Shown: positions 11,501-55,797 of the stretch, one piece after another | How the letters are laid out: every line of letters starts with the position of its first letter | Numbering within the stretch: the first letter of the stretch is position 1 | Assembly: GCF_900119185.1 (NCBI RefSeq) | Contig: NZ_FPJE01000004.1 | Span: 124,001 to 188,000, forward strand | DNA length: 64,000 bases | Direction of reading: 5' to 3' | Source: Sinomicrobium oceani | Lineage (GTDB): Bacteria > Bacteroidota > Bacteroidia > Flavobacteriales > Flavobacteriaceae | Notes under the pieces: model-generated | Told to the model about the DNA's origin: nothing | The model's database searches: none | The model's input: only the letters and a program-made list of their open reading frames with translations | Position numbers and translations under genes: made by a program

Positions 11501-12242
11501 CCGTATTGGCAATCAGGATCATCGTAACGGCAAAATCATTTTCAAAAAGGCCGTTCACCCTGGTCATAGTGGCGTTCATTGCGGCGAGTGCATCTTCCTT
11601 GGTGCCACCGAAGTACTGGGTGTATTCCCCGGAAGCAGAAAGGGCTAGGCGATATGTACGTAAAGTACTGTCATCGGTGTTTTTTTGTACGGTTCCGCTT
11701 ATGGCAAGGGTGACATCCTCTTCTACCTTACACTCGAAACCCGACATCATTTTAGAGTTCTTCCGATCGTAGACGATGTATTGCGTGCGATCTTTGGAAT
11801 AGGGTTCGATAAATACCGAGCCGTTTTTGGCAGAGAGCTTCATGCTTTGCAATCCGAGATGGGAAATACTGAAACGTATCATTGCCGATGGATCATCAAT
11901 ACTTTTTCCCGTATACGACTTGATTCCGGGATATCGTGCCGCAAGAGCGGGGTGCATCACGGGGGCTTCGGATATCCGGTACTTTTCGAAATTACCGTCT
12001 GCATCCGGAAATTCGATGACAATGTCGGACTTTCCTGAGATCTGTCCTCTCAACGGGGCATTCTGCAGCAGTTTTTTGAGGGATTCCAGGTTCAGGGTAT
12101 AGGTTTTACCGGAAGGAAGCTGTGCCTTCTGAGGTAATATGTTCGATCTTCCGGCGGTATTTGCCGGGGTCCACACCTGGCTTTGTCCGTAACCGGCAAA
12201 GAAGCAAAGCGCAAAGGTGATAAAGAGTAGTTTTTTTATCAT
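8574..12242 (-). CDS. Secreted reprolysin-like zinc metalloprotease with T9SS tail
   Basis: This 1222-aa multidomain protein has a signal peptide (about 1-20) and a propeptide-like region to about 190. A metzincin catalytic domain follows, with the zinc site HEMGHQFGANH (His330, Glu331, His334, His340) and a downstream Met-turn candidate (GSGSTIMGYAG). After it come PKD/cadherin-like segments (about 410-640), an FN3 domain (about 740-830), a proprotein convertase P domain (about 834-977) and a C-terminal T9SS type A sorting domain (about 1143-1222, VVYPNPF... to GVYLIKI). It is probably exported by SecYEG, passed through the outer membrane by T9SS, and acts on extracellular protein. A paralogue lies at 13786-17469 with the same order of domains. 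Confidence 0.93.
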   Translation of the reverse strand: MIKKLLFITFALCFFAGYGQSQVWTPANTAGRSNILPQKAQLPSGKTYTLNLESLKKLLQNAPLRGQISGKSDIVIEFPDADGNFEKYRISEAPVMHPALAARYPGIKSYTGKSIDDPSAMIRFSISHLGLQSMKLSAKNGSVFIEPYSKDRTQYIVYDRKNSKMMSGFECKVEEDVTLAISGTVQKNTDDSTLRTYRLALSASGEYTQYFGGTKEDALAAMNATMTRVNGLFENDFAVTMILIANTDDVIYTDPATDPYTGSYNGELQSTLTSVIGEENYDIGHVFIQGGDNGNAGCIGCVCVDNRKGSGFTSHSNPEGDNFDVDFVAHEMGHQFGANHTFTIRDEGTDAHYEPGSGSTIMGYAGITGATDVQPHSDPYFHAFSIEQVSNYVKTTTCQTDTSTGNNVPTADAGGDFTIPKGTPFMLTGEGTDADSDDILTYCWEQMDEDDALSPYPSPTATSGPVFRSIAPSVSATRYFPAIATVLSGSTASQWEVVPEVAREMNFRLTVRDNRPGGAANNSDDIILTVSDAAGPFIITSHDTSMNIASGSTQTVTWDVAGTNTGEVNAQLVDILFAPSDDFSELRTMATGVTNNGSHEITFPDDVNTDTGRIIVRASDNVFYAVSQGDLSIREFALDFQVDDLTVCKPEDLEFTFTYQASSGFSEEVSFSATELPEGTSVSFTPAVVTESETEIQVSVTGTGSLDEGAYSFSIHAESEGGLTDEKEVDIQVYEPIEIGEVSPLSPYNASDVNTTVSMQWEEIPDVPSYTIQIAADEAFSSIIDEASVTATSYISEELENGQTYYWRVKGVGHCEEGAYSTTFYFHTSESASGCDLFENNTAIPISSASPNTITSSVEVSDVGILTSLVLNLDITHSYVSDLTVSLTSPSGTTVVILDGVCGGNENIDASFGNDGEPLTCGNGTPTITGHLLPQESFEIFQEEPLDGTWTLTVTDGYSLDGGMLNAFSLDICTDPPSLSLPQDNFALKTTSETCRDNDDGSVSIESMEIHDYQAVITGADDLEITGSFQYFWETKNLKSGNYSMCITAEGYPGFQQCFDFTISQPEELSVTSSVNQSRRRVELELRGGELYTIELNGMTTQTSERNVSLDLEPGENQLTVKTGKNCQGIYSEKIYVAPDDVVVYPNPFRETTKVFIGNAVEGDIQISIFSLTGRLVMTQNYSRTFSGGDEFELQASGLVPGVYLIKIQGKQFKKTFKMVKL

Positions 12243-13785: not shown

Positions 13786-16700
13786 TTATCTTTTTAGGAT
13801 TTTTACGGTTTTATGAATGTCTGCTCCACTGATTTTGACGAGATATACTCCGGGAGGCAAAATATGGAGTCCGAGATCCGAATGACCGTCTGTAGTATTG
13901 ATCTTCTGCGACATCATAAGTTTTCCGGACAGGGAGAACACCGATAGACGGAGGATTCCGGAAATATCACTGCCGATATAAGCACTGGCAGTATCCGTAA
14001 ACGGATTCGGATATATGACCACATCGTCAGGGGAGATATAGATATCCTCTTTGTATATGCCCTGGCAGGATTTGTCTGTTCTGATGACAACCGTATTTTT
14101 TCCTGATCGCAGGGGGAGGCTGATATTCTTGTTCCCGGTGGTTATCGATGTTCCGTTGAGTTCTATGATATAATGCCGCCCTCCTTCGAGTGACAGGTGG
14201 AGGTTATTATCCGAGGCATTTACACGCGTATAGACCGATAAATCTCCGGACGGTGCTACGGTAACATCGAAACACTGTATAAAGACGGGGTTGTCCGCAA
14301 TGGTGAAACACAATGCGTATGTTCCGGGAGCCAGATTTCCGATCTCCCAGTTTTCGGAGAAATCGGCGGTTACAGCGGTATTCTCTCCGCGAAAATCTAC
14401 CTGGTAGTTCAGATTTACCTGAGCGTTTACGGAAATATGGCCGTCCCTGGTGTCTTTACACGATTCGTCGGTAACTTTGATACGGAAGTTATCAGGAGCC
14501 GGAGCAGGACATCTGGTAATGCTAAAACTATTAATGCTTCCCCCGTCTTCTGCGTGAGCGTCTCTCACAGTCAGGGTCCAGGTTCCCTTTAAGGATTCTC
14601 CGCGGAAATCTGTCAGTGATCCCGAGGGTTTTACAGTGCCGCCTATGGCCGGGTTGTTATTACAGTTAATGTGGTCTCCCGTATCGCTGAATATAGCGCG
14701 GATATCCTGAACTTCATCGCATATCCCGGAGATGATCTGTACTGTAGTTCCTGAGGGCGATGTAAGGCTGATCGTAAGGTCGGATACCCAGGTGTGTGTA
14801 ATATCGAGAGATAAGGACAATCCTCCGGCGATAAGATCTTCATCCGTAATATGCAATAAAGACGTTACGGTACTGGCACGGTTTTCAGGAATAATGACAG
14901 GGTCCGTACTTGTATAGGTTTTGCATTGGGTTTCCAGGGTACTGAAAGAAAAAGGAGGGCTGTATTCTCCCTCACCACAGCGGTTTTTTGGTCTGACCCT
15001 CCAGTAATAAAACTTGTCGTTTTCCAGGAGTTGAGGTTCGTAAAACGGGAAGTTTACCGAAGCCGTTTCGAGCAGATCGGAGAAGTCCGCTGTTGCAGCG
15101 ATCTGAATATCGTATTGTTCCGCGTTGTCTATGGTATCCCATTCCAGCGTAATTCCGAAGGCGGGACGCAATTCCCGGGTTCCGTCGGCAGGAGAAGAGA
15201 GGTTTGCTGCAGGGAAAATGTCGTCATAAACTTCAAGGGAGAGTGGTACATTGCGGACTTGCTGCCCCGATGTCCCTGCTATGTGTATATCATACGGGCC
15301 CTTTGCTTCGATTCCGGAAATTTCCATAATGACTTTCGTACTGTCAGAAGTTGCCGAAGCCGGTGAAAAAGTGGCCTGTAATCCCTGTGGCATTTCGGCG
15401 GAAAAGGTGGTCTCCGCATTAAACCCGTTGTGTGTCCGGTACAAAAAGGGGTATGCCACTTGTTGGGAGATACAGTGCTTTTGGGTCAGTTCTTCGAATT
15501 CCAGGGTGAAATCAGAAGAGGTGATGGTAAGATCTGCAGTATTGACCGAGAAAAAGATATTTCCTCTGGGTTTTACCATAATCCTGGCCTTGTTGGTTTC
15601 GATCCCGCCGGGAATGAGTACCGTGGCCGATCCGTTATTGGGAAGTTCGGAACCGATAGTATGCGGATTGCCAAAACTTCCGTCTTCCGATAGTAAAATG
15701 TCTACAAAAGCTGCCGAGATTGTTCCGGTCTGCGTTTCTGCAACATCCCAGGTGATCGTTTCCGTAGTTCCTCCGGTCAATGTTTTTTCTTCCTGATGTG
15801 AAGTCATCCGGAAAGGACCTGCATGTCCGTCTACCGTGATACGAACATCGTCCCTTACGGTTTGTCCGCCGGAGGGATTATTGTCCCTGACTGTGAAAGA
15901 AAAGTTTAGTTCCCTGTCTGTTTCGGGAAGGACTTCCCAGGTGTTAGCCAGTGCGCCCGAAAGGATGTCGTCAAGTCTCGGGAAATACCGATGAGGCACT
16001 GTTACGGGTGAATAAGAACGGAATACGGGCCCTCCCGAAGCCGTTGCATCGGGATAGCCTTCGTTGATTTGGTTATCTGTTTGTTCCCACGTATAGGTAA
16101 GGGCATCCCCGTCGGGGTCCGATCCGGAGCCCGTAAGGACAAAGGCAGTTCCGGCGGGAATTGTGTAATCTGCTCCTGCATCGGCAACCGGAGGCAGGTT
16201 CCCTGTGTTTTGCAGGGTAGCACAGGTGCTGTTTCCTGTAGTGATATTGTCCCGGATCTGAGCGATACTGACGGTATGGAAATAAGGATCACTGTAGTTT
16301 TGTATATTGGGAGGGCATATCCCGGCATAGGCCATGATCGTAGAACCGCTTCCGGGTTCTACGGCAGTTCCGGCGCTTCTCTCGTCCCCACAATAATTGT
16401 TAAAGGTGTGCGTAGCGCCAAACTGATGTCCCATTTCATGAGCTACATAATCCACGGCAAAAGGATCGCCGACCGGGGCTGTAGTTCCCGTTACGCCCTT
16501 CGCCTTCGAAGCGGTACAGGGAGAATTCAGTTGTGCGATTCCGCCGGCTCCCGTACTGAAAACATGTCCGATGTCATAATTTTCACTGCCGGCAATACCA
16601 TCAATGATAGCTTGTATCTCGTCGATTAATGTTTTACCGTTGTTATTGGTCATTCCGTCGGTTTCCGGATCGAGAAATATAAGGTCGTCATTGTTTTCGA

Positions 16701-17469
16701 TCAGTTGCATGCGTATGGAGAGGTCATTTTCGTAAATCCCGTTGACCCGTGTCATAATCGTATTCATCGCAGCGAGTACCGCCTCTTTTTGTTGAGAAAC
16801 CGTACCGTTATTGAGCCCTGCTGCACTGATATGATACCGGGCAAACTCCCCGGTACAGGCCAGTGCCAGACGGAAAATACGCATCTGTCCGTCATCAGCT
16901 CTTTTCAGCCTTCCGGTATTTTTTAATGCCGGGCCATAGGTTTCATCGATGATTTTACATTCGAAATCTTTGTCTAACGGAGTGTATGAAGCTTTGCCGG
17001 CCAGTACATAAATGTCTTTCTCTTCTTTGTCGGGATTGAGGTAGTACGTTCCGTTTTTGTCGTAGATAACACCGTGAAATCCATAATGGTCAAGACTGAA
17101 TCTGATCCGGGTCTGCGGGTTGGAAACCGATGTTCCGGAGTACGACCGGATACCCGGATACTTCTCGGCTAACCGTTCGGGAAGAAAGGGAACTTCGGTG
17201 ATGATAAAGTCTTCGATACCCCCGCCTTTTACCGGAAAAGAAACAGTGGTCCGGTTTCTTCCCCGAATATGCTTACGCCCGGCGGAAACTCCGGAAAGAT
17301 CCGATTTCAGGGTGTTGATTTCCAGTCGGTAGCCTTCAGTGGAAGCGCCGGGCCTGATTCCGGATATATTTTTTTCATGATGGGAAATCCTGGTCCACGG
17401 CCTATGCTGCCCGGAAACCGTAACGTACGAAAAAAGAATAAAAATAAGCGGGAGTAGGTGTTTTTTCAT
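13786..17469 (-). CDS. Second secreted reprolysin-like zinc metalloprotease with T9SS tail
   Basis: This 1227-aa paralogue of the 8574-12242 product has the same architecture. A signal peptide (ends near VSGQ) and propeptide are followed by the metzincin domain with HEMGHQFGATH (His344, Glu345, His348, His354) and a STIMAYAG Met-turn candidate. PKD-like segments, an FN3 domain and a P domain (about 846-983) follow. A T9SS sorting domain starts near residue 1153 (VIYPNPFTDTA) and ends GVYLVKISG...KTVKILKR. It shares long stretches with its neighbour, for example the catalytic core and DDVV(V/I)YPNPF, so a tandem duplication is likely. It is expected to be secreted and to degrade protein outside the cell. 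Confidence 0.93.
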   Translation of the reverse strand: MKKHLLPLIFILFSYVTVSGQHRPWTRISHHEKNISGIRPGASTEGYRLEINTLKSDLSGVSAGRKHIRGRNRTTVSFPVKGGGIEDFIITEVPFLPERLAEKYPGIRSYSGTSVSNPQTRIRFSLDHYGFHGVIYDKNGTYYLNPDKEEKDIYVLAGKASYTPLDKDFECKIIDETYGPALKNTGRLKRADDGQMRIFRLALACTGEFARYHISAAGLNNGTVSQQKEAVLAAMNTIMTRVNGIYENDLSIRMQLIENNDDLIFLDPETDGMTNNNGKTLIDEIQAIIDGIAGSENYDIGHVFSTGAGGIAQLNSPCTASKAKGVTGTTAPVGDPFAVDYVAHEMGHQFGATHTFNNYCGDERSAGTAVEPGSGSTIMAYAGICPPNIQNYSDPYFHTVSIAQIRDNITTGNSTCATLQNTGNLPPVADAGADYTIPAGTAFVLTGSGSDPDGDALTYTWEQTDNQINEGYPDATASGGPVFRSYSPVTVPHRYFPRLDDILSGALANTWEVLPETDRELNFSFTVRDNNPSGGQTVRDDVRITVDGHAGPFRMTSHQEEKTLTGGTTETITWDVAETQTGTISAAFVDILLSEDGSFGNPHTIGSELPNNGSATVLIPGGIETNKARIMVKPRGNIFFSVNTADLTITSSDFTLEFEELTQKHCISQQVAYPFLYRTHNGFNAETTFSAEMPQGLQATFSPASATSDSTKVIMEISGIEAKGPYDIHIAGTSGQQVRNVPLSLEVYDDIFPAANLSSPADGTRELRPAFGITLEWDTIDNAEQYDIQIAATADFSDLLETASVNFPFYEPQLLENDKFYYWRVRPKNRCGEGEYSPPFSFSTLETQCKTYTSTDPVIIPENRASTVTSLLHITDEDLIAGGLSLSLDITHTWVSDLTISLTSPSGTTVQIISGICDEVQDIRAIFSDTGDHINCNNNPAIGGTVKPSGSLTDFRGESLKGTWTLTVRDAHAEDGGSINSFSITRCPAPAPDNFRIKVTDESCKDTRDGHISVNAQVNLNYQVDFRGENTAVTADFSENWEIGNLAPGTYALCFTIADNPVFIQCFDVTVAPSGDLSVYTRVNASDNNLHLSLEGGRHYIIELNGTSITTGNKNISLPLRSGKNTVVIRTDKSCQGIYKEDIYISPDDVVIYPNPFTDTASAYIGSDISGILRLSVFSLSGKLMMSQKINTTDGHSDLGLHILPPGVYLVKISGADIHKTVKILKR

Positions 17470-39636: not shown

Positions 39637-42600
39637 ATGATTGATAAGATCATCGGCTTTTCCGTTAAGAACAAGATTGTCGTGTTCCTGATGGTTACAG
39701 CCATTATTGGTGGCGGGTGGTATGCTGTGAAAACCATCAACCTGGATTCCGTCCCCGATATTACCAACAACCAGGTTCAGATTATTACGGTATCTCCCAA
39801 CCTGGGCACTGAAGATATAGAACAATTTGTAACATACACGGTAGAACTTGCCGTGTCTAACCTACCCGGTGTAGAAGAGATACGTTCGGTATCTCGCTTT
39901 GGGCTTTCGGTAGTTACCGTTGTGTTTGAAGACCGTATGGGAACTTACCTGCCCAGGCAGCTGGTCAGTGAAAAGCTCTCGGGTATTCGTGAAGAAATAC
40001 CCCGTGGGTTCGGAGAACCGGTTATGGGGCCGATTACCACAGGTCTCGGAGAGATATACCAATATACGATTCTACCCGAAGCAGGATATGAAGAGCAATA
40101 TTCTCCGGCAGACCTCCGCTCGGTACAGGACTGGATTGTAAAAAGGCAGATGGCCTTGCTGCCCGGTGTGGTTGAAGTAAATTCTTTCGGAGGACATATC
40201 AAACAATATGAAGTAGCTCTTAATCCTGCCCGTCTGAATAGTGCGGGAGTGTCCATACATGAAGTCTACGAAGCTCTGCAGCAGAACAATGCCAATACCG
40301 GAGGAGCTTACATAGAAAAAAGTCATATGGCCAACTTTATCCGCGGAAGGGCTCATCACCTCGCTCGATGATATTCGGAATATTGTGATAAAAACGGTAG
40401 AGGGACAACCCTTGCTTATTAGTGCCGTAGCTGAAGAAGTCCGTTTCGGAAATCAGATCCGGTACGGTGCCGTAACCAGGGATGGCGAAGGAGAAGCTGT
40501 GGGGGGAATGGTATTGCTGCTCAAAGGAGAAAACTCCAACAAGGTTATAAAACGGATAAAGGATCGGGTAAAGGAAATAGAAAAATCACTTCCTGAGGGG
40601 CTGCATATCGAGCCCTTTACGGACCGTAGCGAACTCATAAAACGTACTACGGATACCGTAACCCGAAACCTTGTCGAAGGAGCGCTTATTGTCATTTTTG
40701 TCCTGGTTTTACTGCTGGGGAGTTTCCGGGGCGGATTGATCGTGGCTTCCGTTATTCCGTTATCGCTTTTCGTAGCTCTGATCCTCATGAAGATCTTCGG
40801 GGTATGGGCCAACCTGATGTCTCTGGGAGCTATAGACTTCGGGATCATCGTAGACGGGGCTGTTATTATTGTGGAAGGTGCTGTACATTTTATAGATAGA
40901 CGCATGAAGCGTTCTACAGCATCGGTTTCGGGGAAAGAAATGGATGAAATAGCCTATGATTCCGGGAGCCAGATGATGAATTCGGCCTTTTTCGGGCAGT
41001 TGATCATACTCATTGTATTTGCTCCCATACTTTTCCTCACCGGGGTCGAAGGCAAGATGTTCCAGCCCATGGCTTATACTTTCGGTTTTGCTATGATCGG
41101 GGCTATTGTATTATGCCTGACCTATGTTCCTGCCATGTCTGCCCTGTGCCTGAGACCATCGGGAAAAGATTCCGGATTTTCCAGGTTCGAAAGTAAGCTG
41201 CGGCATATTGGCGATACCGTGATAAACTTTTGTCAGAATATATACAAGCCGGTACTGATAAAAGCCCTGAAATCGGGTAGAGTGGTCATTGTTTTCTCCA
41301 TAGGACTCCTCGGGGTGTCCCTGTATATTTTCAGTAAGATGGGGGGCGAGTTCCTGCCCAAGCTCGATGAGGGGGATCTTGCCATGCAGGTATTGCTCCG
41401 CCCGGGAAGCTCTCTGTCCGAAAGTATAGCAACGACGACCAAAGTAGAGAAGATCGTGACATCCTTTCCGGAAGTAAAGACCATGGTTTCCCGAATCGGG
41501 GTTGCGGATATTCCTACCGATCCGATGCCGATGGACATAGCGGACTGTATCATAACACTGGAAAAAGATAAATCCGGATGGAAAACAGCCGCAACCAAGG
41601 AGGAGCTTATCGCTAAAATCAAAGAAGCTACCGAGGTAATTCCCGGTATAAATACGGTGTTTACCCAGCCTGTGGAATTGCGCTTTAATGAGCTTCTCAC
41701 CGGAGTTAGAGAGGATATAGCTATTAAGCTTTACGGAGAAGACCTGGATATACTCGCGGAGAAGGCAGAGCAGATGGCCGCGATTATCCGTAAGATTGAC
41801 GGGGTGGGTGATGTACGCCCGGAAGCGACTTCCGGACTTCCCCAGATGACTGTTGCTTATGACCGGCATAAAATGTCCAAATACGGTCTTACGATTGAAA
41901 AACTGAATACCTATATCAGCACTGCATTTGCCGGGCGTACCGCCGGTGTGGTGTTTGAGGGGGAAAAACGTTTTGATCTGGTACTCCGCTTTGATGAAGG
42001 GTTTCGGCAGGATATCGGAAACCTTCGCAACCTCTATGTTGATCTTCCGAACGGTGGACAAATACCGATATCGGAAGTGGCTGACATTGATTTTAAGGCA
42101 GGGCCTATGCAGATAAGCCGGGACAACACGTCACGGAGGGTATCCGTAGGGGTTAACGTAAGGGGAAGAGATATACAGTCGCTGGTCGGGGAGATCCGTG
42201 ACCGGTTGGAAACAGACCTCAAGCTTCCCCCCGGATATTATATGCAATACGGTGGGGCTTTCGAAAACCTGCAAAGAGCCAAGGAGAGGCTTGGTATTGT
42301 TGTACCGATAGCCCTGGCACTGATATTTGTTCTACTGTACTTTGCGCTGAAATCATTTTCACAAACGGTAATGATCTATATGGCCGTGCCTTTGTCGGCT
42401 ATAGGCGGGATCTTTGCCTTGTGGATAAGAGATATGCCATTCAGTATATCTGCCGGGGTGGGGTTTATCGTACTCTTCGGGGTGGCGGTGCTCAACGGCC
42501 TGGTATTGATAAGCAGGTTTAACAGTCTCAAGGAAGAGGGGGTGACGAGTGTAAGAACACGTATTATCACCGGGACAAAAGAGCGGTTGCGCCCCATTAT

Positions 42601-44026
42601 CCTGACGGCACTTACTGATGTTCTCGGCTTTTTTCCGATGGCCCTGTCTGCTTCTGCCGGAGCTGAAGTACAGCGACCGCTGGCTACCGTAGTTATCGGT
42701 GGTCTGGCAACAGCTACACTGCTTACACTTATCGTCATTCCCGTTATGTATGCCATGGTGGAAAACAGGAGATCCGGGAAACAGGGAAATCGCATACCTG
42801 CCAGAACAGTGCTTCCGGTATTGGTCTTGCTGGCCGTATTGTTCATTCCCGGGAGGAGTACTGCTCAGCAAGCTCCCCGGGTTGTTTCGCTACGGGAAGC
42901 GGTGTCCGTAGCTCTCGAAAAATACCCGGAGGTAAAGCGCGCGGCATTGTCTGTTACGGAGAAGGAAATGCTTCGGGGAACGGCCTTCGATGCCGGGCAA
43001 ACCAGTATCGGTACGGGGGGAGAAGAATATGGCGGGCCGGACAGGATCAGGAATACCCTGACTCTCAGTCAGAACAACATCGACATTTTCGGGACTATTG
43101 CAAAATCATCTCTGAATACATCGCGTATTGCTGCCGAAAAGGAGCGGCTTGAGGTCACAAAGCTTCAAACTGCATTAGCAGTGTACCAGGCGTATTACGA
43201 CGCGGTCAATGCCCGGGAACAACGGAAACTGGCCCTGCAAATGGACAGTATATACGGCGATTTTCTACGCGCTGCAAAGTTGAGATATGAGACCGAAGCG
43301 ACGACCAGGCTGGAGCTTCTTGCGGCCGAAGGGCAATACGGAGCTGTTGTTGCACAGAAAATAGAAGCGGAGAACAATTACAGGAAAGCACTGAATGTCC
43401 TGAATCGATGGATACTTGAAGAATTTCCTTTTGATGTTGAACCGGTTTCCGGATTATTTGCCGGAGAAGGTGCATGGAAACGACAGCCGGAAGACCATCC
43501 TTTGATGCGGCTTGCACGGTTGGAAACCCGGACTTCTGAGTCGCTGTGGCGAATGGAGAAGGCAGCCTTTTTACCCAAACTGAATGCCTCGTACGGATGG
43601 CAGGAAGTAGCCGGGCAAAGCGGGTTCTATTCCTGGAACCTGGGCCTGTCGGTGCCGTTGTTCTTCTGGAACCAGGGAGCGAAAACCAAAGCGGCAAAAA
43701 TTGGTGTAGCCATGGCAAAAGAACGGTCGCTACAGCAGGAGAACGACCTTAAAACAGAGATGCGTGCCACACAGAACGATTATGACAGGTTAAGCGCTAC
43801 GGTAAAACTCTATCGCAACCAGCTACTTCCTCTTGCCATGGAACAGATTGCGGCTGCCAATCTGAGTTACCGGGAAGGAGAAATAGATTATGTCTCTTTT
43901 ATACAGAACCTGAACAATGCAAAGGAAGTACAGCGTGAGTACCTGGACCGTCTGCGTGAATACAATGCAACAGTAATCCGTCTCAGGTATCTCACTGCTC
44001 CCGAAACTCTAATTGATAACCTGTAA
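39637..44026 (+). pseudogene. czcA: CzcA-type heavy-metal RND pump fused to a TolC-like domain, frameshifted
   Basis: The first 244 codons (39637-40371) match the start of CzcA (MIDKIIGFSVKNKIVVFL...) and then lose frame at FIRG|RAHHLAR. The continuation GLITSLDDIRNIVIKT is in another frame from about 40349 to 44026. Restoring two bases near 40347 (expected GGA GAA GGG, seen GGA AGG G) gives one frame of 1463 codons. The RND part has the metal-pump motif DFGIIVDGAVIIVE; from about 42865 a signal-like segment leads into an outer-membrane efflux (TolC/OEP) domain, a fusion known in Bacteroidota. Either the gene is broken or the base call is wrong. Confidence 0.85.
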
Positions 44027-44057: not shown

Positions 44058-45299
44058 ATGAGAACATTAAGAACTATGTACTGCTTGTTGGCTGGCCTGA
44101 TACTGCTGGCTTGCGGAAGGCCTGCAGAATCCGGGAGAGGAACGGATAAAAGCGATGATGGCCTGTCAGATACAGAACTTGTGAATGAAACCGGACATGA
44201 CGATGAGAATGTGGTAGCCCTTACCCGACGGCAAAGGGAAGTTATTAATCTCCGGCTCGGAAATTTCACGACAATTAATATCGATGGGGCCATACGGGTA
44301 ACCGGGGAGCTCGAATTATACCCTGAAGACGAAGCTACCGTAGGGGTTTTTATGGAAGGGAATATAAGTCGTATATTGGTGAAGCCCGGAGAAAAAGTCC
44401 GGGAAGGCCAGGTACTGGCCTATGTCCGGGACCCTGCTTTTATCGACTTGCAGGCAGACCTCAGGGAGTTGCAAAGCGAATATGATTACCTGTATCAGGA
44501 GTACGAACGGCAGAAAACCTTATATGAAAATAACGTTGCTTCAGGTAAAAATTATCAGCGTGTTACTTCCGATTATAAATCCGTTGCGGCACGGCTGGAA
44601 AGTATAAAAACCAAATTGAGACTGCTCCATGTCCATCCCGCGTCTGTTTTACAAGGTCGTACTTCGGAGGCTTTTCCGGTCGTATCTCCTATAACGGGTT
44701 ATGTACGTGAAATAGGGGTGACTTTAGGGGAGCGGGTGACCACAGGAACCCCGCTTTTTCGTATTATGAATAAAGAGAATATCCATGCCGATCTGCTGGT
44801 CTATGAGAAGGATCTCGACAAAATAAGGGAAGGTCAGCAGGTCACACTGTATATAGCTAATAATCGTGAAAAGCCGGTGAAAGGTAAGATCACCGAGATC
44901 GGAAAAAACTATGAGAACACTATCCGGGCCGTGCGTATGCATGCCAGCCTGGAAGGAAAAAAAGAAACTTTTGTGCCCGGCATGTTTGTGGAAGGACTGA
45001 TTGCGGTTCAGGATCTGGAAACAAATGTGCTTCCCGGCGCAGCTGTGGTAGAAGACGAGGGAAAGACATACATTTTTGTGAAGCAGCAACAGGATAATCA
45101 CCAGGCACATAAAACCTCCGAAAAGAGCGCGGAAAAGTGGATGTTTACAAAAACAGAAGTGCAGACGGGGAGCAATACCAGAGAATGGATAGAGGTAAAG
45201 CCGTTAACCTCCCTGCCGGAGAACGCAGAGATCGTTACAGAGGGAGCCTATTATCTTCTGTCCGAGATGAAAAAAGGGGAAGCAACGCATTCGCATTAA
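44058..45299 (+). CDS. czcB: Heavy-metal efflux periplasmic adaptor (CzcB-type)
   Basis: This 413-aa protein has a lipoprotein signal (LLACGRPAES), a biotinyl-lipoyl-like hairpin (VFMEGNISRILVKPGEKVREGQVLAYV), a coiled-coil hairpin (about 130-185) and a beta-barrel domain, the layout of membrane fusion proteins. It links the inner-membrane RND pump to the outer-membrane channel, here supplied by the fused czcA. The tail has scattered His residues (DNHQAHK, ATHSH) that could bind metal. It starts 31 bp after the czcA stop. Its value depends on whether czcA works. Confidence 0.9.
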   Translation: MRTLRTMYCLLAGLILLACGRPAESGRGTDKSDDGLSDTELVNETGHDDENVVALTRRQREVINLRLGNFTTINIDGAIRVTGELELYPEDEATVGVFMEGNISRILVKPGEKVREGQVLAYVRDPAFIDLQADLRELQSEYDYLYQEYERQKTLYENNVASGKNYQRVTSDYKSVAARLESIKTKLRLLHVHPASVLQGRTSEAFPVVSPITGYVREIGVTLGERVTTGTPLFRIMNKENIHADLLVYEKDLDKIREGQQVTLYIANNREKPVKGKITEIGKNYENTIRAVRMHASLEGKKETFVPGMFVEGLIAVQDLETNVLPGAAVVEDEGKTYIFVKQQQDNHQAHKTSEKSAEKWMFTKTEVQTGSNTREWIEVKPLTSLPENAEIVTEGAYYLLSEMKKGEATHSH

Positions 45300-45373: not shown

Positions 45374-45769
45374 TCAGGTCTGTATCGGCCATTTTTTATG
45401 ATAAGCAGTATTGCCTATGTTGATCTCTTTGGCAGATATGACAATTTCCGTAGTCATGGGCTCATCCCCGATAGCACGGAATTTTTCGTGGTATTTAATA
45501 CAATACCCTTTTTTAAAAGAGGTGGTACGCATGCGGCTCATACCATCCCGTTTATAGAATGTCAGGCTACCGTCTTTGGTTTGTGTGCTGCTGATGGCCC
45601 AGTCCGAGAAGTTATCTTTCATATCCGTTTCCAGAACAAGGCGTATCTCACCTCCTTTGGCGTTGGTGGAAGGCTTACCGTTATGATCAGTGCCTTTTTC
45701 TACCCGGATATCGTATTCGAGGATATTGTATGACGTATCGTCTATTTCAAATTTTGCTAAAAAGGACAT
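45374..45769 (-). CDS. TssD (Hcp)-type T6SS tube protein, copy 2
   Basis: This 131-aa protein has the short Hcp-like beta-barrel pattern of Bacteroidota TssD: MSF.A.F..D...YNI, a Gly/Arg loop (NAKGGEIRLVLET), FSDWAIS, and a YCIKYHEKF strand. In T6SS subtype iii, TssD hexamers stack to form the tube and can carry effectors. It resembles the gene just upstream (45886-46272). Neither tssB, tssC, tssK nor vgrG is in the window. Confidence 0.8.
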   Translation of the reverse strand: MSFLAKFEIDDTSYNILEYDIRVEKGTDHNGKPSTNAKGGEIRLVLETDMKDNFSDWAISSTQTKDGSLTFYKRDGMSRMRTTSFKKGYCIKYHEKFRAIGDEPMTTEIVISAKEINIGNTAYHKKWPIQT

Positions 45770-45885: not shown

Positions 45886-46272
45886 TTATACCCATTCATT
45901 GATGTGTTCTCCGCCTCCGCTGGAAATCACACGGCATGATATGGTAAAGTTCTCGGTCAGGGGGGTATCCCCGCTATGTTCAAAGGTCTCCCTGTATTTG
46001 ACGAGATAGCCTTCGGTAAAATGTACTTCCCGAAGTTTGGCATCGGTGTCTCGTTTGACATAGGTGATTACACCGTTTTTACGTTCGAAGTTATTGGTCA
46101 TCCATTCGAAGAAGAAAGATTCTCCCGTTGATTCCACGGTCAGATTAATACGTCCGCCGCGGGTTACGGATGAAGGACGCCCTGTGGCATCTACTTCCTG
46201 TGCGAGGTCATAATTGGCGTTGAGAATATTGACTTTTTTACCGCCAACTGATAATGTTGCTTTAAATGACAT
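45886..46272 (-). CDS. TssD (Hcp)-type T6SS tube protein, copy 1
   Basis: This 128-aa paralogue of the next gene begins MSFKATLSVGGKKVNILNANY and has VTRGGRINLTVEST, FFFEWMTN and YLVKYRETFEHSGDTP in the same order, typical of the Bacteroidota TssD family. It has no signal peptide, as expected for a protein moved by T6SS. It is the first gene of a two-gene run, downstream of a 200-bp AT-rich region with palindromic repeats (46344-46379). Confidence 0.82.
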   Translation of the reverse strand: MSFKATLSVGGKKVNILNANYDLAQEVDATGRPSSVTRGGRINLTVESTGESFFFEWMTNNFERKNGVITYVKRDTDAKLREVHFTEGYLVKYRETFEHSGDTPLTENFTISCRVISSGGGEHINEWV

Positions 46273-46473: not shown

Positions 46474-47514
46474 TTATGGAATTTGTTTCACCAGATAAAT
46501 ATATACGGGGAAATGGTCGCTGTATCCGCCGGAGTAGTTTCCATTGGTGTAGCTTCGCAGAGGGTAACCCCGGTAGGGTCCGGAAGGGGTTATAAGGAAG
46601 TGCTTATTGTAGATTCCGGCTTTCCAGTAACGGTAGGAAGACTTGTCTTTTTTGAGTAATGATGAGGTGAAGAAAATCTGGTCGAATAGATGCCATTGAT
46701 CCCGATGCGCCAGTGTTCCCAATCCTTTTTCCGCCATTTCTTCCATAGGATTATACAATGTACTTTCGTCCCGTCCTCTGCGCTCTTTTCTCGTTTTAAG
46801 TACTTTTTTCAGACTTGGGTCAGTGGGGTCGTCGTTGAGGTCTCCCATGCTTATAATTTTGGCATCGGGAGTCAGTGCAATGACAGAATCTATAATTTTT
46901 TTATTGAGAGCTGCAGCGGCCATCCGGTTAGGCCTGCTTTTGCGTTCCCCTCCGTAGCGGGAAGGCCAGTGGTTCACTATAAAATATACGGGTTCGTCAT
47001 CGAGTATACCACTGACGAGCAATTGGTCCCGGGTGTAGATCCGGGAACTTTCTTCATCGTATATCTCAAGGGGAACATTTCTGGAACTCAAAGGAGTAAA
47101 ACAGTCTTTTTTATAGAGTAGTGCAACATCAATACCCCGGCGATCCGGAGAATCGAAATGGACAATTCCGTAGTGATACGGAGCCAGGTTGTCGGTGCTG
47201 ACCAGGTCGTGCAAAACATTACCGTTTTCAACCTCGGCAAGCCCTACAATATCTGGAGCCGTACCCGTAATGTCAGCGCCGATACCTGAAATTACATGTG
47301 CCACTCTGGATAATTTGTCCCTGTAACGTTCCGATGTCCATCGATAGGAACCTTCCGGACTTCGTTCCGCATCCCATTCGGAATCAGGGATAGTGTCGAA
47401 TAGATTTTCCGTGTTGTAGAACGCTACGGTTTTTACCGTATACCTGGTTTGGGCCTGTATTTTTCGTACTGGGAAAAGCACAAAGACTACAAAAAACAGT
47501 ATAATCTTGAACAT
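46474..47514 (-). CDS. Exported endonuclease/exonuclease/phosphatase family protein
   Basis: This 346-aa protein begins at ATG 47514 with a signal peptide (MFKIILFFVVFVLFPVRKIQAQ); a longer frame to 47640 lacks family features. Metal and catalytic motifs of the DNase I-like fold are present in order: YNTENLFD, GLAEVENG (Glu), NHWPSR, MGDLNDDP (Asp, Asn) and SDHFPV (Asp-His). Homologues cut DNA or RNA, or remove phosphate. Export means extracellular or periplasmic nucleic acid is the likely substrate. It is divergent from a TonB receptor and OB/lamin-tail lipoprotein. Confidence 0.88.
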   Translation of the reverse strand: MFKIILFFVVFVLFPVRKIQAQTRYTVKTVAFYNTENLFDTIPDSEWDAERSPEGSYRWTSERYRDKLSRVAHVISGIGADITGTAPDIVGLAEVENGNVLHDLVSTDNLAPYHYGIVHFDSPDRRGIDVALLYKKDCFTPLSSRNVPLEIYDEESSRIYTRDQLLVSGILDDEPVYFIVNHWPSRYGGERKSRPNRMAAAALNKKIIDSVIALTPDAKIISMGDLNDDPTDPSLKKVLKTRKERRGRDESTLYNPMEEMAEKGLGTLAHRDQWHLFDQIFFTSSLLKKDKSSYRYWKAGIYNKHFLITPSGPYRGYPLRSYTNGNYSGGYSDHFPVYIYLVKQIP

Positions 47515-47743
47515 GATAAGATGGGTCTTTCCGGTGAAAGATAACAAAAGAATATGGTAGTTTAAAAAGATGTTTCTTATAAAGGTGTCTGAAGTACAGT
47601 GTTTTAAAGGGGTTTCGGGACTATAGAAAAAATCTATCATAAAAACTTGGGACTCTTATAATGCTGTGGTGTAGAAATTAATAACAGGTCAGGTGAAATA
47701 CCTATTGCCAACCTGTCAGCCTCAGATCAAATCGATTAACAAG

Positions 47744-50488
47744 ATGAAACGAAAACTACTATTATTGCTTTTATTTCCTTACGTGCATTGCAGTTTCGGT
47801 CAGGAATTTTTCCGCATTACCGGGAAAGTTCTGGATTACCGGACCCGGGCCCCGCTGAAAGACATTCAGGTCCGCATTCAACATACCGTACAATGGCAGC
47901 GTAGCGGAGAAGACGGAACATTTGTTTTCAGCGGGATATCCCCGGGAAATTACAAATTACAGATCGAACAGAAGGGATACCTTCCGGCGGCTTTCCCCTT
48001 AGTGGTGGGTAGTGAAAATGTCCACACAGGCGACCTGTTTCTCGAACCGGATATTCAGGATGATATACCGGAGGCCGTTGCTATGATTACAGACAGTGAT
48101 CTCGCTGATGATGAAAGCGGGGCCGATGTAGCTTCCGGAATACTTCAGGCCGGGAGGGATATCTATTTGCAAAGGGCGGCTTTCGATTTTAGTCAGGCTT
48201 TCTACAAGGTGAGAGGGTACGACTCCAGGGAAGGGTTGGTCATGCTCAACGGAATACCGGTAAACCGGGTTTTCAACGGACGGCCGCAATGGAATAACTG
48301 GGGCGGATTAAATGATGTTACCCGTAGCCAGGAACTCTTTTTTGGCTGGTCCCCTTCGCCTTTCCACTTCGGGGGGGTGCTGGGGAGTACCAATATCATG
48401 ATGAGAGCTTCGGAATATCGCCCGGGCTTTCGGATATCGTCCTCCGCGTCCGATCGTTTTTACAAAGGGAGGTTTATGGCCACCTACAGTTCCGGAATGC
48501 AGGAGAACGGATGGGCATTTACACTTTCATCTTCGCGAAGGTGGGCACAAGAGGCCTATACAGACGGGACATTATATGACGCGTGGTCGCTTTTCGGGGC
48601 TGTCGAATACCGGTTTAATGAAAAAAACAGTATTCAGGCTATCGGGATATTCGCACCGAATCGCCGGGGAAGTTCGGCTGCCATTACCCGGGAAGTATTC
48701 GAACTCATGGGGAGAAAGTATAATCCGTACTGGGGGATACAGGATGGGAACATCAGGAATGCCCGCGAACGGAAAATAAGAGAACCCATGGCACTGTTAT
48801 CCTATTTTCACGAAAGGGACAATTTTAGGCTTACTGCAGGGGTCTTGCAACAATGGGGAACATACAGTCGCAGCCGTTTGGGATATTATAATGCCCCGAA
48901 TCCGGATCCGGTTTATTATCGCTATCTCCCCAGCTTTTATATCAACAGCCCGTCGGGGGCAAATTTTGAAAATGCGGCATTGGCCAGGGAAGGTTTTCTG
49001 AATGCCCCGCAGCTCAACTGGAGTACCTTGTACCGGATAAATACCAGCCCCGTGCAGTCCGGAAAAAGCTTTTATATACTTTATGACGATCAGGCGGAGG
49101 AGACCGCAACGACATTCCACACTTCCGCGCTTTTCCGTTTCGGAAACCAGATAACCGTAAATGCCGGGGTGTTTTACAAAAATTCAATAACCCGCAATTA
49201 CGCCGGTATTACCGATCTCCTCGGTGGAAGTTTTCACGAAGATATAGATCCGTTTACCGATACCCGTAACGATCTGTCTGGTGAGGTGCGAAAATCCGAG
49301 GGCGACAGGTTTGGTTACGATTATACGATGTTTGCCGGACAAGGCCAGGGGTTTGTACAGCTGCGCACAGTGCGTAAAAAATGGGAAGCCTTCCTGGCTG
49401 TTCATGCCGGATATACCAGGTATCAGCGGGAAGGACACTACCTTAACGAACGCTTTCCCGACAATTCACTGGGAAAGAGTGACCCGGTTAGCTTTACGGA
49501 TTACGGGATGAAAGCGGGCGGCACCTATCATATTACCGGTCGTCATGCCGTACATATCAACGCAGGATACATCCAAAGGGCTCCCCTGTTGCAAAACACT
49601 TTTGTCAATCCCAGAGAAAATAAGGAGATCGTTAAAAACCTGGTCGCTGAGACCGTGACCAGTGCGGATATAGGATATACCCTTCGTCTGGCCGGGGTCA
49701 CCGCGAGGTTAAATGGATATTATACCCGGTTCGAAGACGCGACCGATATCAGTTTCTTTTATGTAGATGCCGGTGTGGGGAGTGATTTTGTGCAGGAAAG
49801 TGTAAGCGGCATACAAAAGCTCCATGCCGGTGGAGAGCTGGGAGTTACTTACCAGGTATCTCCGGAAGTAAAGCTCTCTGCGGTGGGGGCATACGGTAAA
49901 TTTACCTATACCGATAATGCGAATGTGGCCATTAACTTCGATACGGCCGGAAGAGAGGAGGATTTGATCAACCCTGATGGTTTTCTTGATCTCGGAGAGA
50001 CGTCGATTAAAGGATACCGGTTGGCGACAGGCCCTCAGCAGGCTTATTCCGCCGGAATAGAGTATCGGGACCCGGACTATTGGTGGGTAGGGATGACCGC
50101 AAATTACCTGACGGATAATTATGTGGATGTTTCCAAGATTATCCGGACCGATAGTTTTTATATAAACCCCGATACGGGAGACCGCTTTGCAGGTTCGACG
50201 GAAGAAGCGGTCTCAGCGCTGAGGCGACAGGAAAAACTCGACGATTTTTATCTTTTGAACCTTACTGCAGGTAAATCCTGGTTAGTCAACGGGAAATACA
50301 TAGGTCTCTTTCTGAGCGTGAATAATGTGTTTGATGTATTGTATCGCACAGGAGGTTACGAACAGAGCCGTAACGGTAATTTCGGCCAGTTACAATCCGA
50401 TACGGCCAGAGGGATGCCTTCATTTGGACCCAGGTACTGGTACGGGTTCGGGAGGACATATTTCATAAATATCGCTATAAGTTTCTGA
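47744..50488 (+). CDS. TonB-dependent outer-membrane receptor
   Basis: This 914-aa protein starts at ATG 47744 with a signal peptide (MKRKLLLLLLFPYVHCSFGQ); an earlier in-frame start at 47693 is not favoured. A carboxypeptidase-like regulatory domain follows (about 22-105), then a plug (FYKVRGYDSREGLVMLNGIPVNRV) and a long beta barrel that ends in an aromatic residue (INIAISF). No SusD-type partner is present; the next gene is a DUF5689/lamin-tail lipoprotein that starts after 1 bp. The ligand may be a nucleic-acid product or a phosphorus compound, judged only from neighbours. Confidence 0.9.
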   Translation: MKRKLLLLLLFPYVHCSFGQEFFRITGKVLDYRTRAPLKDIQVRIQHTVQWQRSGEDGTFVFSGISPGNYKLQIEQKGYLPAAFPLVVGSENVHTGDLFLEPDIQDDIPEAVAMITDSDLADDESGADVASGILQAGRDIYLQRAAFDFSQAFYKVRGYDSREGLVMLNGIPVNRVFNGRPQWNNWGGLNDVTRSQELFFGWSPSPFHFGGVLGSTNIMMRASEYRPGFRISSSASDRFYKGRFMATYSSGMQENGWAFTLSSSRRWAQEAYTDGTLYDAWSLFGAVEYRFNEKNSIQAIGIFAPNRRGSSAAITREVFELMGRKYNPYWGIQDGNIRNARERKIREPMALLSYFHERDNFRLTAGVLQQWGTYSRSRLGYYNAPNPDPVYYRYLPSFYINSPSGANFENAALAREGFLNAPQLNWSTLYRINTSPVQSGKSFYILYDDQAEETATTFHTSALFRFGNQITVNAGVFYKNSITRNYAGITDLLGGSFHEDIDPFTDTRNDLSGEVRKSEGDRFGYDYTMFAGQGQGFVQLRTVRKKWEAFLAVHAGYTRYQREGHYLNERFPDNSLGKSDPVSFTDYGMKAGGTYHITGRHAVHINAGYIQRAPLLQNTFVNPRENKEIVKNLVAETVTSADIGYTLRLAGVTARLNGYYTRFEDATDISFFYVDAGVGSDFVQESVSGIQKLHAGGELGVTYQVSPEVKLSAVGAYGKFTYTDNANVAINFDTAGREEDLINPDGFLDLGETSIKGYRLATGPQQAYSAGIEYRDPDYWWVGMTANYLTDNYVDVSKIIRTDSFYINPDTGDRFAGSTEEAVSALRRQEKLDDFYLLNLTAGKSWLVNGKYIGLFLSVNNVFDVLYRTGGYEQSRNGNFGQLQSDTARGMPSFGPRYWYGFGRTYFINIAISF

Positions 50489-50489
50489 C

Positions 50490-52391
50490 ATGGGAAGATA
50501 TCGGTTTTTTAGCCTTGTTGCAATGGTTTTGCTATGGGCCTGTGTAAACCATACGTATGATGCTCCGGCAGCGAATTGCGGACAGGACGGGATGGAACCC
50601 AACATGACATTTTCAGAACTGAAGGCGTTGTATGAGGGGGAAGTAATGGAAATATATGACGACATGGTTATAGAGGGCTATGTGATTTCCAGTGACCGTA
50701 CCGGAAATTTTTACGGTACGCTGCATATACAGGATACCCCCGAAAATCCTTCGGGAGGATTGCAGATCGATGTGGATATACGCGATTATCATTTGTTATA
50801 CCCGGTAGGAAAAAAGATCAGGGTCCGGTTGAAAGGATTGTTCCTCGGAAAAACGCATGAAGTGTTTAAGATCGGGGGTATATTCACCAGCGTGGGCGGA
50901 AATCGATCCGTGGGGAGACTACCTGCGACTAAAGTTTGGGAACATATTTTTGCTACTTGTGATGATAGGGTTGATGTGCTTCCTGTTTCGGTACGTGCAG
51001 ATGCGCTGAACGATGACATGCTCAATACGCTGGTCACCCTGGAGGGACTGGAAGTGGTTCCTGAAGAGGTCTGCAAGCCCTATGCTATTGCGGGAGAGAG
51101 CCGCACCGACAGGGGGCTGCAAAGTTGTGAGGGAGACCTGGTGATGTTAAAGAACAGTGGATATGCCGATTTTCATGAGGTAGAACTACCTGTCGGTTAT
51201 GGTAGGGTTACCGGGGTGCTTAGCAAGTATTACAGCAGCTATCAGCTTATTATTCGTGATACCACGGATGTCGATCTTAGCGGAGAACGATGTGGTGGGA
51301 TTGTTTTTTCGTGCGATACCGGAGAGGCCGACGCTTCCATCGCTTATGTGAGAAGTAAGTTTAACGGAAGGAAAACGGAGATCCCGGAGAATATCAAAAT
51401 AACAGGCGTTGTTATTTCGGACAGGGAATCCGGTCATATAGAAGAGCATCTTTTGGTGCTTCAGGATAGCACGGCAGGGATTGTTTGTGCCTTTACGGCG
51501 GAACATTCCTTAAATTCGGGAGACCGGGTAGAAATTCTGTTACGCAGTGCCGTACTGGAAGAGGAAGAAGGGTTGTTGCATGTTAAAGATCTTCCGCCGG
51601 ATCACATCAGATTTCTGGAATCGCAGCAGGAACCGGAGCCGGCGTACCCTGATCTTTCCGGTGATCTCCGAAATTATGAGAGCAGACTGGTCCGGTTGGA
51701 CAGTGTCAGTTTCGCGACCCCGGGGGGTGTTTATTCCGGTGTGCGTATCATAACTGATTGTTCGGATGCTCTGCATGTATATACCCCCGAAAGCGCTTCT
51801 TTTGCGGAGACGCAGGTACATGACGGGAGCGGAAGTATTTTCGGTATCGTTTCCCGATATGAGGATGCTTATTGCCTGGTTTTGCGAAGTCCCGATGATG
51901 TGAAGTTCAACCGGCCTTACCGGGATTGTCTCGGGGGGACCGATCTGATGATTACCGAATATGTGGAAGGTTCGGGATATAATAAATACCTGGAGATCTA
52001 TAACGCCACGGATGTAATGCTTGATCTCGGGAGATATCAACTGGCCCGTGATTATAACGGAGACGGAGACTATACCCGGTACACATTGGAATTGTCCGGT
52101 ACCCTGGAACCCGGAGGCTTATTAGTGTATGCCCATCCGAGAGCTGAGATATTCATGGGAAATATAGCGGAAACCCACGGCGGAGTACTGGGCTTTAACG
52201 GAGATGACCGGGTTGTGTTGATGAAAAACGGAATGGTTATAGATGAAATAGGGCTTCCTGGAGGAGAAAACTGGGGGATGGACAAAACACTGCGAAGAAA
52301 ACCGGAGGTATCGGTTCCCGTTAACGTATTCCGGGAAGATGAGTGGGAAACATATCCAGTGGATGAAGTAGAAGGGCTTGGAATACGGTAA
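50490..52391 (+). CDS. DUF5689 / lamin-tail-domain lipoprotein
   Basis: This 633-aa lipoprotein (signal with LLWACVNH) starts 1 bp after the TonB receptor. Two OB-like DUF5689 stretches are visible (about 40-250 and 275-475; IEGYVISSDRTGNFYGTLHIQD and ITGVVISDRESGHIEEHLLVLQD repeat the same pattern). A lamin tail domain follows (about 485-590; LMITEYVEGSGYNKYLEIYN). OB and lamin-tail modules are known N-terminal parts of ExeM-like extracellular nucleases. Here the nuclease itself is a separate divergent gene. A surface role in binding DNA or an uptake substrate is inferred. Confidence 0.82.
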   Translation: MGRYRFFSLVAMVLLWACVNHTYDAPAANCGQDGMEPNMTFSELKALYEGEVMEIYDDMVIEGYVISSDRTGNFYGTLHIQDTPENPSGGLQIDVDIRDYHLLYPVGKKIRVRLKGLFLGKTHEVFKIGGIFTSVGGNRSVGRLPATKVWEHIFATCDDRVDVLPVSVRADALNDDMLNTLVTLEGLEVVPEEVCKPYAIAGESRTDRGLQSCEGDLVMLKNSGYADFHEVELPVGYGRVTGVLSKYYSSYQLIIRDTTDVDLSGERCGGIVFSCDTGEADASIAYVRSKFNGRKTEIPENIKITGVVISDRESGHIEEHLLVLQDSTAGIVCAFTAEHSLNSGDRVEILLRSAVLEEEEGLLHVKDLPPDHIRFLESQQEPEPAYPDLSGDLRNYESRLVRLDSVSFATPGGVYSGVRIITDCSDALHVYTPESASFAETQVHDGSGSIFGIVSRYEDAYCLVLRSPDDVKFNRPYRDCLGGTDLMITEYVEGSGYNKYLEIYNATDVMLDLGRYQLARDYNGDGDYTRYTLELSGTLEPGGLLVYAHPRAEIFMGNIAETHGGVLGFNGDDRVVLMKNGMVIDEIGLPGGENWGMDKTLRRKPEVSVPVNVFREDEWETYPVDEVEGLGIR

Positions 52392-55098: not shown

Positions 55099-55797
55099 TT
55101 ATACGGTAATAGCCATCGTGGCAACACTTACTTTAACATTCTTGTGTTTTTGCAATGTACGTGTACAGCGTTCCAGTGTAGCGCCTGTAGTGATAACATC
55201 ATCTACCAGCAGGATGTGACAAGCCGGGAGTTGTATGTCGGGGTTGATGCCAAAGATACTTTCACTTTCCTTCCACCTCGACATTTTGTTTTTGAATGTC
55301 TGTCCGCCGGTATCATCGGTTTTTACCAGGATATCCTCGCGATATGCAGCTCGTAGCGCCCCGGCAAGGCATTTGGCGAATCCCGATACCTGGTTGTATC
55401 CTCTTTTTCGCTGTTTTTTGGGGTGAAGCGGAACCGGGATCACCATATCAATAGTGTTTCCGAAACCACTTTCGGACAGAAGGTGTCCGTACCACATGCC
55501 GAGGAGTGTACCTATATTTTCACGTTTTTTGTATTTGAGGTGATGGATGAGCTGTTGGGTAATTCCTTTTTTATGAAATAGTAAAAAAGCCGTCCCCGAT
55601 TCTATCTTTACTCTGCCGTAAAACATTTTCTCTACCGGATTCTCCTTGGTCCTGTGGTACCCGGTTTCCGGGAGGCGATGCCTGCATTCCGTGCAGATAA
55701 CCTGCTCGTTCGGAGACAACCGGGTAGCACATCCCGGACACATTACCGGGAAGAAAAGGTCGTAAATGTCATTCAGAATACGGGCCGGTCGTAGCAC
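55099..55797 (-). CDS. comF: ComF family phosphoribosyltransferase-like protein
   Basis: This 232-aa protein has an N-terminal four-cysteine zinc motif (Cys20, Cys23, Cys35, Cys38) and a PRTase loop (ILLVDDVITTGATLERC) near the C-terminus. ComF/GntX proteins act in DNA uptake in naturally competent bacteria, or in phosphoribosyl metabolism; the exact reaction is not settled. It appears to have its own promoter box (55818-55825) and is divergent from glyS. Confidence 0.88.
   Translation of the reverse strand: MLRPARILNDIYDLFFPVMCPGCATRLSPNEQVICTECRHRLPETGYHRTKENPVEKMFYGRVKIESGTAFLLFHKKGITQQLIHHLKYKKRENIGTLLGMWYGHLLSESGFGNTIDMVIPVPLHPKKQRKRGYNQVSGFAKCLAGALRAAYREDILVKTDDTGGQTFKNKMSRWKESESIFGINPDIQLPACHILLVDDVITTGATLERCTRTLQKHKNVKVSVATMAITV

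Follow-up and report, generated by a model that had tools for sequence, protein, structure and literature searches.

A TonB-dependent receptor and an OB-fold lipoprotein as a candidate outer-membrane route for transforming DNA in Sinomicrobium oceani and its relatives

How transforming DNA crosses the outer membrane in Bacteroidota is an unsettled question. The present study concerns a three-gene locus of Sinomicrobium oceani which was originally predicted to be a possible split ExeM-type nuclease system for scavenging nucleic acids or phosphate: a surface lipoprotein would capture DNA, an exported nuclease would cut it, and a TonB-dependent receptor would import a product. Does this locus feed the cell, or does it serve genetic exchange? 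The locus occupies positions 46474–52391 of the window, the stretch of 64,000 nucleotides that was analysed, and an ORF check confirmed the reading frames of all three genes. The receptor gene (47744..50488, forward strand) is divergent from the nuclease gene (46474..47514, reverse strand), and the lipoprotein gene (50490..52391, forward strand) lies 1 bp downstream of the receptor gene; the junction reads TGA C ATG, and the gap described in the original prediction is real. The likely start codons are ATG 47514 for the nuclease (MFKIILFFVVFVLFPVRKIQA/Q) and ATG 47744 for the receptor, leaving a divergent intergenic region of 229 bp (47515..47743). A search of this region for the Bacteroidota -33/-7 promoter consensus found none, and two relatives gave -7-like matches only. 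Two tandem TssD/Hcp-like genes (45374-45769 and 45886-46272, both reverse strand; PF17642, E-values 8e-44 and 1e-46) adjoin the nuclease gene; no further gene of a type VI secretion system was recognised next to this pair. Elsewhere in the window, a 1213-residue ORF (40385-44026, forward strand) that by eye appears to join part of an RND efflux pump to a TolC-like outer-membrane part is followed by a membrane-fusion protein (44058-45299), and two related reprolysin-like metalloproteases (8574-12242 and 13786-17469, both reverse strand) each carry a P-domain and a T9SS sorting tail.

The nuclease belongs to the exported DNase I-fold (EEP) proteins, as had been proposed: it matches Pfam family PF19580 (Exo_endo_phos_3) with an E-value of 1.3e-116 and 389.5 bits against a cut-off of 27. 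Its catalytic motifs (E94/E96, N181-H182, D225, N227 and S332-D333-H334) are invariant among 22 sequences. The N-terminus, read by eye from the alignment, resembles a Sec signal peptide, and no T9SS tail was found on the protein with Pfam or NCBIfam; because of this combination the nuclease is probably periplasmic, which does not support the idea that it cuts DNA outside the cell. A second PF19580 nuclease in the same genome (G000:C30:41678-42595; L071:5643-6608) is apparently without a signal peptide.

The identity of the receptor was likewise predicted correctly. It combines an N-terminal carboxypeptidase-regulatory-like domain (Pfam E-value 1.7e-10) with a plug and a barrel, the Pfam match to the plug being weak. 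The structure model (pLDDT 84) has the fold of a TonB-dependent receptor; its best match is BtuB, with a Z-score of 29.2 and an rmsd of 3.5 over 500 aligned residues, and it aligns with BtuB, FyuA and FhuA across both plug and barrel.

The lipoprotein has a lipobox with an invariant cysteine, Cys18, and the structure prediction and profile search that had been suggested for it together recover the proposed domains. Pfam finds two PF18942 (DUF5689) stretches (E-value 1.9e-99), which correspond to positions 50598..51272 and 51330..51902, and one lamin tail domain, or LTD (PF00932, E-value 2.8e-12, residues 484-588, positions 51939..52253), all on the forward strand. In the model (pLDDT 85) both DUF5689 units match OB-fold proteins, with Z-scores of 9.2-9.6 over 79-111 residues among the best matches; these include DNA-bound HIN domains, archaeal RPA, MCM10 and the anticodon-binding OB domain of lysyl-tRNA synthetase. 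The predicted OB fold thus resembles that of DNA binders, although DNA binding does not follow from the fold alone. Searches of solved structures by sequence, with the nuclease profile and with the lipoprotein profile, gave no match. The LTD is optional, being present in 13 of 40 members of the lipoprotein family, while DUF5017 is present in eight of the 40; members may end in a DUF5017-type domain or have one to three DUF5689 units. In one genome (G008, L040:4785-15838) the receptor–lipoprotein pair is duplicated in tandem, with lipoproteins of about 895 residues, the first of which has three DUF5689 units and an LTD.

Genes of this kind have been tested in Riemerella anatipestifer, a bacterium of ducks. 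A transposon screen there identified two adjacent genes, RA0C_RS04915, encoding an outer-membrane protein with a regulatory-like domain, and RA0C_RS04920, encoding a DUF5689 protein, and markerless deletion of either lowers natural transformation below detection (PMC8459023). Mutants in tonBA and tonBB also show reduced transformation (PMC8383284). This screen was the only mention of DUF5689 retrieved by a literature search. When the Riemerella receptor is used as query, a single place is found in the genome of the window, namely this locus (6.7e-156); in the Riemerella-type genome G110, whose locus is 93% identical to the named R. anatipestifer locus L073, the window receptor returns the same gene as its best match (2.3e-155, the next being 2.3e-22). 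The two receptors are therefore one-to-one reciprocal best hits, with 33-36% identity over nearly their full length. The N-terminal half of the lipoprotein corresponds to that of RA0C_RS04920. As judged by sequence, the receptor and lipoprotein of the window are the counterparts of RA0C_RS04915 and RA0C_RS04920. In both L053 and L073 the gene order is comEC, two genes, nuclease, receptor and lipoprotein, and the spacing of locus tags, with genes counted from recA, fits this order (recA RS04870, comEC RS04895, receptor RS04915, lipoprotein RS04920). Because gene order and the recA-to-comEC tag spacing agree, the Riemerella counterpart of the nuclease (38.6% identity, 396 residues) is taken to be RA0C_RS04910. 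For this gene the screen paper gives only transcript data, its transcription being unchanged in the receptor insertion mutant, and the model presented there assigns the conversion of duplex to single-stranded DNA to 'an unidentified protein' (PMC8459023). Flavobacterium johnsoniae has the homologues, yet failed to transform in the laboratory (PMC8459023). It is the Riemerella experiments on which a role of the pair in transformation rests.

The association of nuclease, receptor and DUF5689 lipoprotein is not random, as a neighbourhood survey bears out. The survey covered 38 genomes in which the DUF5689 protein is full, the window's own and those of 37 relatives; in 35 of them the DUF5689 match is preceded, at a distance of about 3.1 kb, by a divergent PF19580 nuclease. 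This count relies on receptor-sized room between the two, and the receptor itself was observed there in the regions read. A search with the Riemerella receptor gave 64 named loci, which may share a few species with the 38 genomes; the nuclease is upstream in 58 of 59 testable cases and the lipoprotein downstream on the same strand in 58 of 61, the exceptions to the latter being L097, L103 and L110. Such linkage is far beyond chance. Most of the Flavobacteriales surveyed have the receptor, as do two other families of the class, and its neighbours are usually conserved; in the regions compared the three genes stay together while flanking genes vary. Nine of the 38 genomes have a second, convergent PF19580 gene just downstream of the DUF5689 gene, so that in some genomes nucleases flank the pair on both sides. 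In one genome (G026, L048:6600-9373) the receptor counterpart is divided between two ORFs of 510 and 404 residues by a frameshift or stop, possibly an assembly error.

The pair may import transforming DNA while the nuclease is an independent neighbour, which might clear DNA or RNA from the periplasm or act like a phosphatase. We consider this sub-version, which overlaps with the preferred explanation, a serious possibility, if at somewhat less than even odds. It is consistent with the absence of RS04910 among the genes hit by the 3000-mutant Riemerella screen, a screen which was not saturated (PMC8459023), and with the genomes in which nuclease and pair are separated: G009 retains a nuclease and has no pair, and in G028 the nuclease lies 600 kb from the pair. 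Against it, the divergent linkage is kept over dozens of genera despite changing flanks. The retained linkage suggests that the task of the nuclease is related to the pair, while G009 indicates that it does not strictly depend on it.

The genome of the window has ComEC (G000:C45) and a ComEA-like protein of 285 residues (G000:C37), which combines HHH repeats of the ComEA type with a hydrophobic anchor at its N-terminus. In 210 near-complete genomes of the window's family, ComEC is missing from eight of the 14 that lack DUF5689 and from one of the 196 that bear it (Fisher 3e-10; the status of G384 was deduced from tallied counts). For the family of Riemerella and Chryseobacterium, the second one compared, the corresponding counts are 2/3 and 0/109 (p 5e-4), leaving out G087, in which the receptor is present near a contig end. 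The receptor counterpart is also absent from the pair-less genomes that were checked. As most pair-less genomes are small, the signal is partly confounded by genome reduction, as it is by shared descent; small size does not apply to G035 (3.6 Mb) or to G361 (2.7 Mb), and among larger genomes only, the co-loss is weaker, with p about 0.001-0.002 for an assumed number of pair-bearing genomes. In two genomes, G178 and G374, ComEC is present and the pair is missing, and one, G287, has the pair without ComEC. The former two are not reduced and may use another outer-membrane step. A further gene, encoding a ComF-like phosphoribosyltransferase (55099..55797, reverse strand; TIGR00201 E-value 3.5e-24, under the curated cut-off), lies outside the core cluster, 2.7 kb from the lipoprotein gene, and is also found near the cluster in the window's genus and in some relatives. 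Transformation of Riemerella requires its ComF (RA0C_RS05105).

The reading of the locus as a split ExeM nuclease did not hold. Against the NCBIfam ExeM/NucH models the scores are 115.3 bits where 1300 are called for (NF033680) and 25.3 where 300 are (NF033681), LTD, OB and nuclease domains lie in two separate genes rather than in one chain, and the LTD is itself variable. Moreover, a true secreted protein of the ExeM-like kind is encoded elsewhere in the genome: on contig C47 (L072:14605-17328) a protein truncated where the contig ends joins DUF5689, DNase I-fold and SprB in one chain with a T9SS tail. Related T9SS-tailed proteins of 1437-1621 residues in the window's genus join Endonuclease I, LTD, DUF5689 and DNase I-fold domains in one chain, with a SprB repeat also among the domains of these large nucleases (L180:2108-6973, L181:4519-8832). 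External DNA breakdown is thus probably the task of a protein other than the nuclease of the window.

In Bacteroidota, a receptor with an adjoining surface lipoprotein is the usual layout for nutrient uptake. This layout, together with a nuclease linked in more than 90% of loci and OB folds in the lipoprotein model, could be read as a feeding system, in which DNA caught by the lipoprotein would be cut by the nuclease, and oligonucleotides, nucleotides or phosphate would enter through the receptor as nutrients. However, the counterparts in Riemerella are essential for transformation (PMC8459023), and omission of phosphate lowers transformation in R. anatipestifer, with no rise (PMC8383284). The co-loss of DUF5689 with ComEC and the presence of a dedicated secreted nuclease, where that of the window has no T9SS tail, also argue against it. 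No match to the NCBIfam SusC model or to the SusD-like domain of Pfam was found at the locus, and a SusCD or polysaccharide-utilisation (PUL) reading was rejected on this ground; nothing relevant was retrieved when the literature was searched for flavobacterial loci that use a TonB receptor to feed on DNA. The scavenging function first proposed is therefore unsupported, and quite unlikely, whereas the proposal of a DNA-related function gains support. The locus more likely serves genetic exchange than feeding on DNA, though it may have a side role in nutrition.

It has also been considered that the pair maintains the envelope, handling or importing something else, and that its loss blocks transformation indirectly through changes in the surface or LPS. 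Such a pleiotropic effect is possible because the Riemerella lipoprotein belongs to the M949_1556 family (NCBIfam NF052645; 590.8 bits, cut-off 475), and a mutant in M949_1556 is cited for altered antigenicity, LPS and virulence or pathogenicity. The lipoprotein of the window scores 207.9 bits, under that cut-off. The OB folds resembling those of DNA binders, the nuclease partner and the co-loss with ComEC point instead to DNA, and an envelope effect, though a live alternative, seems unlikely.

On balance, the receptor and lipoprotein appear to form an outer-membrane DNA-uptake port for natural transformation, a reading to which we give a probability of roughly three in four. We infer that DNA reaching the cell surface would be bound there by the OB-fold units of the lipoprotein, and that the TonB-energised receptor would pass it through the barrel into the periplasm. 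There, the membrane-anchored ComEA-like HHH protein would receive the DNA, and ComEC would deliver one strand to the cytoplasm. The divergent nuclease may assist in converting the duplex to the single-stranded form imported by ComEC, may trim ends, or may clear leftover or surplus DNA; any such periplasmic processing is offered as a tentative guess. In other organisms ComEC has its own strand-degrading domain, while Streptococcus pneumoniae uses a separate nuclease, EndA (PMC12455585), so both layouts exist. A stronger version would see a dedicated, pilus-independent DNA-import module in Flavobacteriales and related families, in which the lipoprotein catches duplex DNA, the receptor passes it whole and the nuclease, as the missing nuclease of the Riemerella model, makes the strand for ComEC; this we regard as somewhat unlikely.

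The cargos known for TonB-dependent receptors are mostly small ligands, glycans and proteins, and a receptor of this class carrying DNA would therefore be unusual. The pair is already known from Riemerella; what is added here is a conserved nuclease partner, the co-loss with ComEC and the OB-fold model. Once the locus is grouped with the Riemerella genes, what had been taken for a way of feeding on DNA becomes a route for gene transfer that can be tested in a large group of bacteria, environmental and animal-associated, and RA0C_RS04910 and its relatives become the obvious, widely conserved candidate for a nuclease partner.

Compared with known systems, the locus is closest to the Riemerella pair, with which it shares domain types, a DUF5689 lipoprotein directly downstream of the receptor on the same strand, and a divergent nuclease upstream. 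The two differ in the C-terminal half of the lipoprotein: the window's has two DUF5689 units and an LTD, whereas Riemerella's has one DUF5689 unit and a choice-of-anchor J domain (DUF5017 in the published description), a variable and not a defining domain of which no match was found in the window lipoprotein. In Riemerella comEC lies three genes upstream of the nuclease, while here it is on another contig. With ExeM/NucH the locus has in common the DNase I-fold nuclease, the OB-like unit and the LTD as domain types, but those proteins are one secreted chain, in contrast to two genes and a nuclease without a secretion tail. Like the BtuB–BtuG and SusC–SusD pairs, it places a lipoprotein beside a TonB-dependent receptor, and the receptor model matches E. 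coli BtuB and the B. theta BtuB1 and BtuB3 chains; unlike them, it has an OB-fold lipoprotein, a nuclease neighbour and no SusC or SusD match. Finally, it shares ComEC and a ComEA-like HHH protein with the type IV pilus/PilQ/ComEA/ComEC machinery, while the outer-membrane step proposed here would use a TonB-dependent receptor and an OB-fold lipoprotein in place of pilus and secretin.
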